A program made the translations under genes and the position numbers. Positions 29,485 to 37,826 of a DNA stretch of 44,072 bases are shown in pieces. Source of the stretch: Deltaproteobacteria bacterium (GTDB lineage Bacteria; Myxococcota_A; Polyangia; JAAYKL01); the NCBI GenBank assembly GCA_016935665.1, contig JAFGQN010000194.1, forward strand, positions 1-44,072, read 5' to 3'. Each line of letters opens with the position of its first letter. Position 1 is the first letter of the stretch. The notes under the pieces were generated by a model that did no database searches, was not told where the DNA came from, and saw only the letters and a list, made by a program, of their open reading frames with translations.

Positions 29485-29607
29485 GTGGACGTCTGTGACA
29501 TTTCAATGACATTTTTGATAATTACTTGCGCTATTTGGCAAGGCAGAACGGTTAAACCGATTTGTTATGGTCTTCTCAAATTTGATTTTGAGGATATGGA
29601 GGAACGA

Positions 29608-31065
29608 ATGTTGGAAAATGTACTGATTGGATTGTATCTGGGAATTCTTGGCCTACTGGCCTTTTACGGATTCCATCGAACACTCCTTACATTTATTTTT
29701 TTTAAAACAAAGCAGAACGTGCCAAAGCCCGCGAGAAAATTTGAGGAAAATGAACTCCCGGTGATTCTGGTGCAGCTGCCGCTTTTCAACGAAAGGTATG
29801 TGTGTGAGCGGTTAATCGATGCCGTCACCCGCTTCAATTATCCCAAGGATAAAATGAAAATTCAGGTGTTGGATGACTCCACAGACGATACCACTGAGAT
29901 TGCGCAGAACAAAGTGGCGCAAGTGGCCGAAGAGGGATTTCAGATTTCTCTTATTCACCGCGAGGATCGCACGGGGTATAAAGCCGGCGCTCTCGAAAAT
30001 GGACTGGCAATGACCGAGGCGGATCTGGTGGCTGTGTTTGATGCCGATTTCATCCCGCCCGTCAATATTCTGCGCGACACCGTAGACTTTTTCTCCGAGG
30101 AGAATGTGGGAATGGTTCAGGCGCGCTGGGGGCACATCAACCGCGGCTACTCGCTGTTGACAAGTATTCAGTCGCTAATGTTGGACGGTCATTTTGTTAT
30201 CGAGCATGGCGCCCGTCATCGCTCAGGTCGGTTCTTTAATTTCAACGGCACAGCGGGCATCTGGCGCGTTTGCACCATTCACGATGCAGGCGGCTGGCAG
30301 CACGATACCCTTACCGAGGATATGGACCTTTCTTACAGAGCGCAGCTGCGCGGCTGGAAGTTTCTTTATGTTGACGATATCATTGCCCCGGCAGAGATTC
30401 CAGTGGAGATGGCCAGCTTCAAGTCTCAGCAGCATCGCTGGGCCAAAGGCAGCATTCAGGTATGCAAAAAAATGTTGCCCACCATTCTGCGCGCCAATGT
30501 GCCCTTCAAGGTTAAGATGGAAGCGTTCTTTCACCTGACCAACAACTTTGCCTACGTCCTCATGATTTTCCTCGCTTTGCTGTTGCTGCCCAATCTGATG
30601 GTGCGCACCGAGCACGGCTGGCGCGAAGTGATTCTGATTGACTTGCCGTTGTTTTTTGGGACCACCGGCTCCATCGGCATGTTTTATATCACCGCACACA
30701 AAGAACTGTATGGGCGTCCCTGGCGCGCACTGGCCAAGGTACCGCTGTTGATGTCACTGGGGATTGGATTGTCCATCAATAACGCCAAAGCGGTTTTGGA
30801 AGGTGTTTTTGGACACGAGACACCGTTCGTTCGAACTGCCAAACACGGCGTCAGCGAAGACAAAAAAGACAACAACTGGAGAAAGAAAACGTATCGCGCT
30901 CGCAAAGGCCTGGTACCTGCCATTGAATTGCTGTTCGCGGCCTATTTCGTCGTAACGATTATTGTGGCATTCCAGGGCGGTCACTTTATTTCCATTCCGT
31001 TCCTGCTGTTGTTCCTTATCGGCTATCTGTACGTAGGCGTTTTCTCCATTTATCAGCGTCGATAA
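29608..31065 (+). CDS. Processive GT2 glycosyltransferase (cellulose-synthase-like)
   Basis: A 485-aa integral membrane protein that polymerises a beta-linked glycan from a nucleotide sugar. An N-terminal membrane helix (5-30) is followed by the GT-A domain with DDS at 89-91, DAD at 145-147, TED at 236-238 and QQHRW at 274-278. These are the four motifs of processive cellulose/mannan synthases. Three to five membrane helices follow (about 315-335, 350-370, 385-405 and two near the end). There is no PilZ domain, so it is closer to CslA-type enzymes than BcsA. GGAGG lies 5 nt before the ATG at 29608; in-frame starts further upstream are unsupported. The product (glucan or mannan) is undetermined. 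Confidence 0.93.
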   Translation: MLENVLIGLYLGILGLLAFYGFHRTLLTFIFFKTKQNVPKPARKFEENELPVILVQLPLFNERYVCERLIDAVTRFNYPKDKMKIQVLDDSTDDTTEIAQNKVAQVAEEGFQISLIHREDRTGYKAGALENGLAMTEADLVAVFDADFIPPVNILRDTVDFFSEENVGMVQARWGHINRGYSLLTSIQSLMLDGHFVIEHGARHRSGRFFNFNGTAGIWRVCTIHDAGGWQHDTLTEDMDLSYRAQLRGWKFLYVDDIIAPAEIPVEMASFKSQQHRWAKGSIQVCKKMLPTILRANVPFKVKMEAFFHLTNNFAYVLMIFLALLLLPNLMVRTEHGWREVILIDLPLFFGTTGSIGMFYITAHKELYGRPWRALAKVPLLMSLGIGLSINNAKAVLEGVFGHETPFVRTAKHGVSEDKKDNNWRKKTYRARKGLVPAIELLFAAYFVVTIIVAFQGGHFISIPFLLLFLIGYLYVGVFSIYQRR

Positions 31066-32485: not shown

Positions 32486-32714
32486 CCGTTCAACGCAGCC
32501 ACTTCCTCGCTCCTGCGACACATAAAGGGGAACCGGAAAACTTTTTTGGACTGTATTGGGGGCTTGCACCGACTTAATCAGTAAAGGCAGGATTAGCGCT
32601 GGTTGTTTCCTTTGAATTGTCGAGCTGGATTACATCTTTTTTGTTTTGTAAAATAATCGTCATACGAGATTAGATGATGCATCTCGCCTGATTGACGGGA
32701 TGCCGTGCAAACCC

Positions 32715-32738
32715 CTGACAGTGATTTCTCACTGTCAG
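32715..32738 (+). promoter_or_regulatory. Perfect hairpin in the GH6 leader
   Basis: CTGACAGTGA (32715-32724) pairs with TCACTGTCAG (32729-32738) over 10 bp around a TTTC loop. The ribosome site AAGGAG (32741-32746) begins only 2 nt after it. It may stabilise the mRNA or modulate ribosome access. No T-run follows, so it is not a terminator. Confidence 0.65.
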
Positions 32739-32752
32739 AAAAGGAGACGTGT

Positions 32753-34030
32753 ATGCAATTGAAGAGAGTGAAACGAATCGTTCCTTTGGCTGCTGTGGCA
32801 GCGATTGTGCTGATGAGCACTCAAGTGGAGGCGCTGGAATTAACGGACCGCACGCGGTTTTATGTGCCTCCCGCCAATGATGGTGCAGTAAATCAGGTTT
32901 GGAATCTCATGTTGTCGGGCCAGCACCAGGATGCATTGAAACTGGGAGAAATGATTACGACTCCCCAGGCGATCTGGATAGAACAGGGCACTCCCAAAGG
33001 CGCAGCCAAACAGACACGCGAAGTGATGCGACGCGCCGCCGCTCATCGAACCGTTCCCATCATTGTGCTGTACAATATTCCCTTCCGCGATTGCGCCCAG
33101 TATTCTGCGGGTGGGGCCACCAGTGTGGCGGAATACATCGCGTGGGTGAAAGGTGTGGCCAAAGGGATTGGCCGTCGCGACGCGGTTGTCATTCTGGAAC
33201 CGGACGGACTTGGTATCATTCCATACTACCAGCCCCTTTACGGCGATATGGACTGGTGCCAGCCGGCTGAGGCAAATTCGGAAACAGCCGCCGCCGACAG
33301 GTTTTACATGATGAATACCGCAGTTCAGATTTTAAAAGCACTGCCCAACACTAAAGTGTATCTGGACGGGACTCACAGCGCCTGGCTGGGAGTGGGCGAA
33401 GCGGCCGATCGTCTGGCAAAAGCAGGGGTTTGGGATGCGGATGGCTTTTTTTTGAACGCATCGAACTATCAGACGCAGTCCAATTTGGAAACCTTTGGCA
33501 GTTGGGTCTCCGCGTGTCTGACGGCATGTGACGTACCGGAACACTGGCACTATGGCCATTTTGACTGGTGCGCAGGCCAGTATGTGGACGGTCAGGCCGA
33601 TTACAGTGAGGCCAATGTGGCAGCCGTTAATGCCACCTACGCCGAATTGCTGGCGGATGTGGGGGAGGAAGCCGTTGCCCGCTTCGTGATTGATACCAGT
33701 CGCAACGGAGTTGGCCCATGGGTGCCCGAACTTCCTGACGGGGTGGAAGGAGACCCTCAGGATTGGTGCAATCCCCCTGATCGCGGCATCGGTTTGCGTC
33801 CAACCACACGCACGTCAAATGAACTGATTGACGCCTATCTCTGGATAAAAATTCCCGGGGAGTCGGATGGCGAATGCAATCGTTGGGCCCTTCCAGGAGA
33901 AGCCGATCCGGTGCGTGAAATGAACGACCCCCCCGCCGGAGTCTGGTTTCCGGAGATGGCGCTGGAACTGGTGACCAACGCCAATCCCGATGTCAATTTG
34001 TTCCCCTTTGGATGGGGACATCGTCATTGA
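32753..34030 (+). CDS. Secreted glycoside hydrolase family 6 (endoglucanase/cellobiohydrolase)
   Basis: A 425-aa exported cellulase that hydrolyses beta-1,4-glucan with inversion. The signal peptide (VPLAAVAAIVLMSTQ) is cleaved probably after VEA (27). GH6 motifs are clear: PIIVLYNIPFRDC with Asp113 and ILEPDGLG with Asp151, the residues matching the two central aspartates of Cel6A (175 and 221). Later come HFDWC, FVIDTSRNGVGPW and WIKIPGESDGECNR (Asp372). There is no carbohydrate-binding module, so the enzyme is a bare catalytic domain. Paired cysteines suggest disulfides, fitting a periplasmic or extracellular place. AAGGAG lies 6 nt before the ATG at 32753; the frame is open upstream to 32705. 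Confidence 0.95.
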   Translation: MQLKRVKRIVPLAAVAAIVLMSTQVEALELTDRTRFYVPPANDGAVNQVWNLMLSGQHQDALKLGEMITTPQAIWIEQGTPKGAAKQTREVMRRAAAHRTVPIIVLYNIPFRDCAQYSAGGATSVAEYIAWVKGVAKGIGRRDAVVILEPDGLGIIPYYQPLYGDMDWCQPAEANSETAAADRFYMMNTAVQILKALPNTKVYLDGTHSAWLGVGEAADRLAKAGVWDADGFFLNASNYQTQSNLETFGSWVSACLTACDVPEHWHYGHFDWCAGQYVDGQADYSEANVAAVNATYAELLADVGEEAVARFVIDTSRNGVGPWVPELPDGVEGDPQDWCNPPDRGIGLRPTTRTSNELIDAYLWIKIPGESDGECNRWALPGEADPVREMNDPPAGVWFPEMALELVTNANPDVNLFPFGWGHRH

Positions 34031-34424: not shown

Positions 34425-35651
34425 ATGCAAAAACGTGTATTGGGGTTGATAATCCTTATTATGTGCCTTTCGACAGCGGCAATAGTGGCCTGTTCGGGCG
34501 GTGATTCTTCTGGCGATGGCGACGACACGTTGAGTGATTTCAGCGTAGACGGCGATGCAGATGGTGATTCTGATGTGGGTTCCGATGGGGACTCGGATAC
34601 AGATGGAGATTCGGACACGGATAGCGATGCCGATTCAGATACGGATGGCGACAGCGATACGGATGGGGATGCCGATGGAGATGGTGATACCGATAGCGAT
34701 GGCAACGGCACATGTGCATTCGAATGCCTGGCCCATTGTCGTTCCTGGAATGGCACTCAAATGGAAGGCGCCTGCGAGGACGGTTTGCGCTGCTGTGAGG
34801 GCGCGGATATTCCCGATACGTCATCCGATGCCGATGCCGATGCCGATGCCGATACGGATACGGATACGGATACGGATGGGGATACAGACTCGGATGGGGA
34901 TACGGATTCGGATTCGGATTGGGATACAGAGGTGAATGGAGATTGCACCGAGATGGGGGCAGACGACAAGTTCAGCTTCTTTTCCACCAGTTATTATCAT
35001 TTAATGTTGCTGGCAGAGGAAGACGGCCGGGGCGACCAGGGATTTGGTGGTGACTTGCGGTACAAAGGCGCATCGACCGGCCTTGAAGGCGCAGACGCCA
35101 TTTGTCAGGAAATTGCGCGTCGCGTGTGCTTTGGACATAAAACCTGGCATGCTTTTTTGAGTGCATCTACCGTGGACGCAGTGGATCGTATTGGCGACGG
35201 ACCATGGTATGATTTTGACGGAAAGCTTGCGGCTGATTCTCCGTCGGATATTATAAACAATTCCGCAGATCGTTTGCCCGGCGGTTGTTGCGATGACGGT
35301 ACATATGATGAAATGGGTTTGTACCATAATCATAAGGTGGACGTGAATGGTGATGGAGTGGGGGACGATGATGATCACGACACATTAACCGGATCCACCC
35401 CTCAGGGGCGACTGGATACCAGTGCGAGTACCTGTGATGACTGGACAAGTACAACCGCAAGTGGCCAACCTCGGATTGGTCACATGTGGCCCCGAATGGG
35501 ACTTACTGGATTCGGCGCCAACTGGGCCTCCGATCATACTGCGGGCGGATGCGCTGCCGGTATTACGCTGACGAACAGTGGTGGCGCTGGTGGCAGCAAC
35601 ACGGTTGGCAGTGCTGGCGGTTACGGGGCGATTTACTGTTTTGCTGAATAA
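34425..35651 (+). CDS. Asp-rich lipoprotein with lectin-like C-terminal domain
   Basis: A 408-aa surface lipoprotein (signal ending IVAC, Cys23). Two Asp-rich spacers (about 42-93 and 135-168) flank a small Cys cluster (CAFECLAHC...CEDGLRCCEG, six to seven Cys within 35 residues). The C-terminal domain (about 180-408) begins SFFSTSYYHLMLLAEEDGRG and contains GLEGADAICQE, KTWHAFLSAS, DRIGDGPWYDFDGKLAA and a Gly/Ser-rich end with paired cysteines. This is the DUF1554/C-type-lectin-like fold found in Leptospira and Myxococcota surface proteins. Ligand is unknown. GGAG lies 6 nt before the ATG at 34425. Confidence 0.8.
   Translation: MQKRVLGLIILIMCLSTAAIVACSGGDSSGDGDDTLSDFSVDGDADGDSDVGSDGDSDTDGDSDTDSDADSDTDGDSDTDGDADGDGDTDSDGNGTCAFECLAHCRSWNGTQMEGACEDGLRCCEGADIPDTSSDADADADADTDTDTDTDGDTDSDGDTDSDSDWDTEVNGDCTEMGADDKFSFFSTSYYHLMLLAEEDGRGDQGFGGDLRYKGASTGLEGADAICQEIARRVCFGHKTWHAFLSASTVDAVDRIGDGPWYDFDGKLAADSPSDIINNSADRLPGGCCDDGTYDEMGLYHNHKVDVNGDGVGDDDDHDTLTGSTPQGRLDTSASTCDDWTSTTASGQPRIGHMWPRMGLTGFGANWASDHTAGGCAAGITLTNSGGAGGSNTVGSAGGYGAIYCFAE
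34549..34930 (+). repeat. Degenerate Asp-rich coding repeats (two blocks)
   Basis: Blocks at about 34549-34704 and 34827-34930 encode D-G-D-S-D-T-D type units. The DNA is more varied than in the fibro-slime gene, except for short GATACG and GATGCC runs at 34827-34875. Confidence 0.75.
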
Positions 35652-35711
35652 CGTGTTTGCAATAAAAAATAATTGCGAATCTTAAACGACTGAGGAATGG
35701 AACTCGGACCT

Positions 35712-37826
35712 ATGCAAAGAAAAAATCGAAAGCGAAAATTAGCAATGAACAGCCCGTACTGGATGGGATGCTGGATGCTGTGCCTCCATTTGGCCGCGTG
35801 CAGTTCGGGTGGGAATAATTCAACAGAAACGACTGACGATGGAACAGATTCTGATTCAAATTCAGAAAACGGCACCGACAGTCAGAGCGGTGTGGCGTGG
35901 GAATGTCAGGTAACCGATGGCAGTTCTCCGGAATTTCTTCCGCTGATTGGCTGTTATGATGATTTTACTGCCATATCATCCATGCCAATGGATTCCAGTT
36001 TGCCAGGGGCATTGTCTGTTAAAACAGTGATAGATCGCGTGGATGAGAATGCCTTGTATTTTCAAAACAGCGAGATGTATCAGATTCACTTCGACTTTGC
36101 ATCTACCCATCTTTCGGGCACGGATGGCCTTCCGGTGATTACTGACGCGTCGTCGTTCGAAGACAACTACTACACCGTGCAGCGCCGCTTTTTTCTCGGC
36201 GCAGTGACCTATTACGAGGGACCGGAGAAATGGGTGTATGAAATCTCCCCGTACGATAATGCGGACGCCGCCATGATTGAAGAGGCTTTTAATACCATTA
36301 AAACCAAAGCGTTTTTTGGTGACCAGCTGGCATTTCATCCCACCGGACAGGCCGTAGAGCAAGTCGCAAAAAAACTGCCCGCATCTGTACCGGTGGTAAC
36401 AACACAGGAGCTGTATGAAGGCACTGATTATCAGGCGTTGAATGTCGCCAAATCATGTGGCCGATTGATTTTCGTAACAGCCAGTGATTTGGAAAACGGC
36501 ATCTATGTTGGATTTCAGGATATTGTGGTGATGGACTCGGCTCCCAATGATATTTCTGTGGTTCAGGGCATTATTACCGAAGAGTTCCAGACACCGCTGT
36601 CTCATGTAAACGTGTTGTCCCAGAATCGTGGCACACCGAACATGGGACTGCACGGGGCGTACGCGAATGAGGATTTGCGCGCGCTTGAAAATAAGTGGGT
36701 GTCACTCGATGTGGGGCCTTTCGACTATGTGGTCGAAGAGATAACCGCTGAAGAGGCACTGGAATGTGCAGTGACACCAGTGCCCATTGACATCACAATG
36801 ATGGATTTGACGGTAACCGACCTCGCCAATGTCCAGGATATAGTAAATCCCGATTCTGATACGCCACTGGTGGATCAAATCAGCGCTGCCATTCCGGCAT
36901 TCGGTGGTAAAGGTAGCCACTACGCTGCCCTTTCGTACGTGGAAGAAGCCAACGTTCCCAAGGCGTTTGTGATTCCTGTATATTACTACAACCAGTTCAT
37001 GGAAGAGAACGGGTTCAACGCACGTGTGGACGAATTCCTGGTGGATGACGACTTTATTGCCGAACCGGCTATTCGCGACGCGAAATTGACGCAGTTGCGG
37101 GACGATATGATGGCCGCACCCATCAATGAGGATTTTCTCACCGCGCTGAAAGACAAACTAAACACGGAATTCCCAGCCACGCGAATGCGCTTCCGCTCCA
37201 GCACCAATGCCGAAGATCTGGGCGATTTCACAGGCGCCGGGCTGTATACGTCCAAAACCGGCGATCCCAATGATTCCAAGCGACCTGTGGAAGACGCGTT
37301 GCGCGAGGTCTGGAGCAGTATCTGGTACTTCCGAGCCTTTGAAGAGCGAACCTACCGGGGCATCGATCACAAAAAAATCGGGATGGCTCTGCTGGTACAC
37401 CACTCGTTCCCGGACGAAGAAGCCAACGGTGTCGCGGTAACTTCAAACCCGTTTGACCTGTCGGGAATGGAGCCTGGTTTCTACATCAATGTGCAGGAAG
37501 GTGAGGAATCTGTAGTGGAACCGGAAGGTGGCGCCACCACCGATCAGTTCATTTACTATTTTGACATGCCGGGACAACCCATGGAGTTCATCGAACACTC
37601 AAGCCTTGTGCCCGATGGTGAAACGGTGCTTACCGCAGAGGAAACGTTTGCCCTCGGCAGAGCACTCAAGGCGATTCACCAGTTTTTCTATGCCTCGTAT
37701 GGCCCCCAGGCAACGGGTAAGGACTGGTACGCCATGGATGTGGAATTCAAGTTCGATCAGGAGGAAGGCAGCGGCGATACGCCCGTACTTCAGATTAAAC
37801 AGGCAAGACCCTATCCTGGAAGATAG
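35712..37826 (+). CDS. Lipoprotein with phospho-histidine and PEP/pyruvate-dikinase ATP-grasp domains
   Basis: A 704-aa protein with an apparent lipoprotein signal (LHLAAC, Cys30) and an Asp/Ser/Thr spacer to about 60. Residues about 60-255 are unrecognised. Then comes a swivelling PEP-utiliser domain (about 260-350) with the phospho-histidine motif TPLSHVNVLSQNRGTPNM (His298). The PPDK_N ATP-grasp domain runs from about 395 to the end: GGKG at 398-401, RSS at 495-497 (TNAEDLGDFTGAGLY), Glu678 and QARP at 697-700. The His-domain-before-ATP-domain order is that of plant glucan water dikinase, not of PEP synthase. All key residues appear present, so catalysis is possible, yet the signal directs it out of the ATP-rich cytoplasm. 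Start is uncertain between 35697 and 35712. Confidence 0.82.
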   Translation: MQRKNRKRKLAMNSPYWMGCWMLCLHLAACSSGGNNSTETTDDGTDSDSNSENGTDSQSGVAWECQVTDGSSPEFLPLIGCYDDFTAISSMPMDSSLPGALSVKTVIDRVDENALYFQNSEMYQIHFDFASTHLSGTDGLPVITDASSFEDNYYTVQRRFFLGAVTYYEGPEKWVYEISPYDNADAAMIEEAFNTIKTKAFFGDQLAFHPTGQAVEQVAKKLPASVPVVTTQELYEGTDYQALNVAKSCGRLIFVTASDLENGIYVGFQDIVVMDSAPNDISVVQGIITEEFQTPLSHVNVLSQNRGTPNMGLHGAYANEDLRALENKWVSLDVGPFDYVVEEITAEEALECAVTPVPIDITMMDLTVTDLANVQDIVNPDSDTPLVDQISAAIPAFGGKGSHYAALSYVEEANVPKAFVIPVYYYNQFMEENGFNARVDEFLVDDDFIAEPAIRDAKLTQLRDDMMAAPINEDFLTALKDKLNTEFPATRMRFRSSTNAEDLGDFTGAGLYTSKTGDPNDSKRPVEDALREVWSSIWYFRAFEERTYRGIDHKKIGMALLVHHSFPDEEANGVAVTSNPFDLSGMEPGFYINVQEGEESVVEPEGGATTDQFIYYFDMPGQPMEFIEHSSLVPDGETVLTAEETFALGRALKAIHQFFYASYGPQATGKDWYAMDVEFKFDQEEGSGDTPVLQIKQARPYPGR

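Follow-up and report, generated by a model that had tools for sequence, protein, structure and literature searches.

A predicted lipoprotein with a catalytic half resembling that of glucan, water dikinase, from an apparently phylum-wide family

The analyzed stretch of DNA (the window, 44,072 nucleotides of contig JAFGQN010000194.1 from a Deltaproteobacteria bacterium) contains a gene predicted to encode a lipid-anchored protein of the dikinase superfamily (Table 1). Its frame is open on the forward strand from an ATG at 35697 to 37826 and corresponds to 709 aa; Met6, at 35712, is the more plausible start, since the n-region MQRKNRKRK comes after Met6 and is followed by a hydrophobic stretch ending in LAAC35. 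Residue numbers refer to the 709-aa frame, in which Cys35 and His303 are Cys30 and His298 counted from 35712. The preliminary description of this DNA, which listed a lipobox cysteine and the phospho-histidine motif LSHVNVLS followed by a PPDK_N ATP-grasp domain, had read these residues correctly, and the ORF was confirmed. His303 lies within PLSHVNVLSQNRGTPN, in the motif PLSHVNVLS. The frame of the DUF1554-like gene is open from 34248, and its product contains long aspartate/serine repeats and a DUF1554-like C-terminal domain. A 425-aa protein with no match in Pfam is also encoded upstream of the GH6 gene.

Table 1. Features of the locus; positions are those of the window.
Feature	Position	Strand	Remarks
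GT2 synthase gene, related to cellulose/PNAG synthases	29485-31065		upstream of the GH6 gene
GH6 family glycoside hydrolase gene	32705-34030		with signal peptide; upstream of the dikinase gene
DUF1554-like lipoprotein gene	34425..35651	+	directly upstream; start ATG 34425 by lipobox IVAC
Lipoprotein dikinase gene (predicted)	35712..37826	+	704 aa from Met6
Signal peptide with lipobox LAAC	35712..35801	+	sequence; lipobox kept across the family
Cys35, predicted lipidated residue	35799-35801 (codon)	+	sequence
Low-complexity S/T/D/N linker past the lipobox, residues 36-64	35802..35888	+	sequence
N-domain, residues 66-235	35892..36401	+	no Pfam match; common to cytosolic Streptomyces homologues
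GWD-type phosphohistidine (swivel) domain, residues 236-362	36402..36782	+	profile comparison; weak Foldseek support for the fold
His303	36603-36605 (codon)	+	in the phosphohistidine domain
PPDK_N ATP-grasp domain, residues 399-709	36891..37823	+	Lys405, Arg500, Glu683, Gln702, Arg704

A profile of the family identified members in 74 of 189 genomes sampled across the phylum (E<=1e-10), and relatives were found in 54 of 96 nearby genomes when matches to the ATP-grasp domain only were included (E<=0.001). The named records among these relatives are uncultured MAGs labeled "Deltaproteobacteria" or "Proteobacteria". The gene thus apparently belongs to a phylum-wide, uncharacterized family of lipid-anchored dikinase-like proteins, as judged from the sequences. 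The source genome harbors three further lipoprotein paralogues with the same domain order (C205, C44 and C169), one of them fused to lamin-tail domains; the paralogue loci are L055:7121-10252, L054:7745-10174 and L056:5596-8361. Viral contigs yielded no relatives, the phage matches spanning the ATP-grasp part alone. Outside the phylum, homologues were found on linear plasmids of Streptomyces (L057:4929-6941 and L058:4932-6938), where a cytosolic member shares a gene set, possibly a biosynthetic cluster, with an MFS transporter and an ATP-grasp protein.

The ATP-grasp domain was matched by the Pfam PPDK_N family over residues 401-620 (74.6 bits, E 1.1e-20, cut-off 27). It features the motifs GGKG (Lys405), RSSTNAED (Arg500-Asp507), a late glutamate (Glu683) and QARP (Gln702 and Arg704), which the preliminary description had pointed out and which could each be aligned with known sites: Lys405, Arg500, Glu683, Gln702 and Arg704 match one to one K27, R127, E320, Q334 and R336 of Escherichia coli PpsA and K23, R117, E297, Q309 and R311 of Streptomyces Rph, and the catalytic residues of a bacterial GWD (glucan, water dikinase) align with them as well. 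Lys22 and Arg117 of Rph are required for rifampin resistance (PMC4844700). Among 64 aligned relatives, His303, Lys405 and Arg500 are each conserved in 63, and Gln702 and Arg704 are kept in all 60 sequences that have letters at those positions. By this alignment, the protein carries the full catalytic residue set of a dikinase ATP-grasp domain. At the residue level, both a PPDK_N domain with its Lys/Arg/Glu/Gln set and a phosphohistidine, the marks of the dikinase superfamily, are present.

The protein has its two catalytic domains in the order of GWD. His303 precedes Lys405, as do the equivalent residues in two bacterial GWDs, while the order is reversed in the PEPS and PPDK proteins; among the proteins compared, the phosphohistidine domain comes before the ATP-grasp domain only in this family, in the Streptomyces homologues and in bacterial GWDs. 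In profile comparisons by hhalign, the His domain matched that of GWD (E about 1e-6) and had no match to the PEPS, PPDK and Rph profiles. The profile-profile score was 44.7, whereas 100 column shuffles reached 19.6 at most. Against whole sequences, the His-domain profile matched one GWD at 7e-6 and the other faintly at 0.05, and a PPDK faintly at 0.006 over 65 columns. In the reciprocal direction, the GWD1_pHisD profile gave six matches in 284 genomes at E<=0.001, every one of which belongs to this family; the 14 control genomes gave no match. These comparisons support homology of the His domain to that of GWD. The tree of proteins with this domain order, proposed in the preliminary description, points the same way: when built from the ATP-grasp domain without the His domain, it separates the family, the Streptomyces homologues and GWD from all enzymes with a C-terminal His domain, albeit on a weakly supported branch (79/83). 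Foldseek aligned the His region weakly with MccF and AF_0055 (best E about 1e-3), which is consistent with a swivel-type fold but no more.

The preliminary description had likened the protein to the catalytic half of a GWD. This holds for the domain order and the His domain but does not extend to the protein being a GWD, because it stays below the curated cut-off of GWD1_pHisD (PF22973, 27 bits; 14 bits for the window protein and 26 bits for the best family member), because the N-terminal carbohydrate-binding and Ig-like domains of GWDs (CBM45-like, PF23166) have no Pfam match in it or in the A1 family members, and because it has a compact N-domain of its own. On this sequence evidence, it is GWD-like in its catalytic half and not a GWD. 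Elsewhere in the class, a genome has two adjacent genes (L089:5050-13244), next to a glycosyltransferase gene, for genuine GWD homologues of 1299 and 1177 aa that look cytosolic; one of the two contains PF23166, and both look unlike the members of this family. A literature search retrieved no paper on lipoprotein dikinases or on a bacterial GWD of this kind.

A strict lipobox scan was passed by 42 of 54 full-length relatives from the phylum, as compared to 45 of 574 control ORFs, and in the remaining 12 the lipobox was read by eye; counted together with Streptomyces, 42 of 56 full-length proteins passed, the 14 failures being two cytosolic Streptomyces proteins and these 12. A conserved lipobox cysteine after a signal segment, which characterizes bacterial lipoproteins, is therefore found in all 54 (12 by eye), although their N-termini are otherwise divergent and contain low-complexity linkers. 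Cys70 and Cys86, which may form a disulfide, occur together in 49 of 64 rows of the alignment and are absent from the cytosolic Streptomyces homologues. Hence, the protein is apparently exported as a lipoprotein and anchored by predicted lipidation at Cys35, in line with the earlier proposal of an exported enzyme. The conservation of the catalytic residues over 64 relatives and of the lipobox in 54 full-length ones argues against a dikinase lipoprotein that arose by chance. As far as the sequence tells, neither a cytoplasmic location, nor a start downstream of the signal segment, nor nearest relatives with a proven PEP or rifampin activity, any of which would have spoken against the preliminary description, came to light.

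A cytoplasmic role, with the signal segment unused, would match the location of ATP but appears very improbable: the Streptomyces homologues lack a signal peptide and show that this type of enzyme can do without export, but the lipobox recurs in all full-length phylum members read and in the three paralogues of the source genome, and the conserved cysteine pair is confined to lipobox-bearing proteins. ATP outside the cytoplasm is unusual. Two studies report released ATP and vesicle ATP for some bacteria (PMC7982384, PMC6335424).

Near-invariant residues of the N-domain in the alignment of relatives are Asp113, His131, Arg163-Arg164, Glu182 and Asp187, which are present in the cytosolic Streptomyces homologues, too. 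This domain is a candidate for binding the acceptor. AlphaFold2 models built on nine homologues were poor, with a mean pLDDT of 51.5 for the whole protein and 64.1 for the N and His region, and yielded no fold for this domain.

The nature of the acceptor was considered in the light of the gene neighborhoods. In the source genome, the GT2 and GH6 (cellulase-type) genes just upstream, along with the GWD-type His domain and domain order, could suggest that the protein is a genuine GWD that is exported and phosphorylates a polysaccharide on the surface or outside the cell, e.g. cellulose or another glucan. Neither GH6 nor GT2 genes were found in any of the neighborhoods of 20 relatives searched; the polysaccharide context, on which the preliminary description had relied, was therefore dropped as evidence. 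Given also the lack of a starch- or glucan-binding domain, the sub-threshold PF22973 score and the separate, different-looking genuine GWDs of the class, we consider such an enzyme quite unlikely.

The genes that do recur in 26 neighborhoods encode lipoproteins, mostly on the same strand: by clustering, Ig-like ones at 14 loci, DUF1554-like ones at 11, propeller proteins at five and lamin-tail proteins at three, where "Ig-like" is a reading of the sequence, Pfam having no match for this type. By TBLASTN, which also counts partial and unclustered copies, DUF1554-like neighbors were found at 14 of 21. The 8.16 Mb source genome has only two DUF1554-like copies, and one of them directly precedes the dikinase gene. 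Together with the paralogue fused to lamin-tail domains, this might indicate an extracytoplasmic kinase or modifier of the adjoining DUF1554-like, Ig-like and lamin-tail lipoproteins, in a role comparable to that of secreted CotH-type kinases. Co-localization is, however, no proof of a substrate, and we know of no dikinase-superfamily enzyme that uses a protein acceptor in such a way outside the cell, making this role unlikely, if less so than that of an exported GWD. About equally doubtful is an Rph- or PigC-like action on small molecules in the periplasm, e.g. antibiotic phosphorylation or metabolite ligation. In its favor, the ATP-grasp domain comes close to the profiles of PEPS and Rph, and the Streptomyces homologues adjoin genes for an ATP-grasp ligase-like protein and an MFS transporter. 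Against it, the family extends across the phylum, a single genome often contains several paralogues, the recurrent neighbors are lipoprotein genes rather than resistance or biosynthesis genes, and the His domain is not Rph-like.

Taken together, we favor, with a probability of about 0.62, a phosphotransferase of the dikinase superfamily that is exported, anchored in a membrane and active on an extracytoplasmic acceptor. In the scheme that we infer for its chemistry, acceptor site and location, ATP would be bound in the ATP-grasp domain and its beta-phosphate transferred to His303, yielding AMP and Pi as Rph, PEP synthase and GWD do; the phospho-His domain would then swing to the N-domain, where Asp113, His131, Arg163-Arg164 and Glu182 are candidate active-site residues, and hand the phosphate to the acceptor. 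Cys35 would hold the protein in a membrane facing the periplasm or the outside, so the acceptor is probably extracytoplasmic, whether a glycan of the surface, a small molecule or a lipoprotein partner, for instance the DUF1554-like one encoded alongside. A supply of ATP outside the cytoplasm would be needed, speculatively from lysed neighbors or vesicles.

To our knowledge, dikinases of this superfamily are cytoplasmic or plastid enzymes. With all catalytic residues kept and a lipobox in each of the 54 full-length phylum members read, the family would extend phosphorylation by way of a phosphohistidine to the surface of bacterial cells. It is conceivable, at somewhat less than even odds, that GWD-related, ATP-using extracytoplasmic dikinases occur phylum-wide on the cell envelope and phosphorylate surface glycans or partner lipoproteins; if so, a usable pool of ATP or of another phosphoryl donor outside the cytoplasm is implied. 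The family thereby raises a testable question of ATP outside the cell. For GWD and PWD, which lack a high-resolution structure (PMC12892837), the compact His domains of this bacterial family, as relatives of that of GWD, may also serve as structural proxies.

Several known enzymes resemble the window protein in part. PEP synthase and PPDK share the PPDK_N ATP-grasp domain and the mobile phosphohistidine mechanism, but they start with the ATP-grasp domain and end in a C-terminal PEP/pyruvate-binding domain; the reversed order and the absence of that domain rule out this identity. Rph likewise has the ATP-grasp domain and likely converts ATP to AMP and Pi via a phosphohistidine (PMC4844700), but its His domain is C-terminal and it has a large rifampin-binding domain, whereas in the window protein the His domain precedes the ATP-grasp domain; with 50 bits against the NCBIfam NF041857 cut-off of 999, the protein is not an Rph. 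Nor is it a CotH-type secreted kinase, as Pfam gives no CotH match. GWD and PWD are closer, sharing the order of the His and PPDK_N domains, a homologous His domain with an LSHV-type motif and the ATP-grasp catalytic residues, and differ in that the window protein is a predicted exported lipoprotein with its own N-domain and nothing that points to a glucan substrate. The Streptomyces proteins annotated as "PEP/pyruvate-binding domain-containing protein" (WP_331760287.1 and WP_142270066.1) differ in their missing signal peptide and their adjoining ATP-grasp and MFS genes, and share the whole architecture, the N-domain included.
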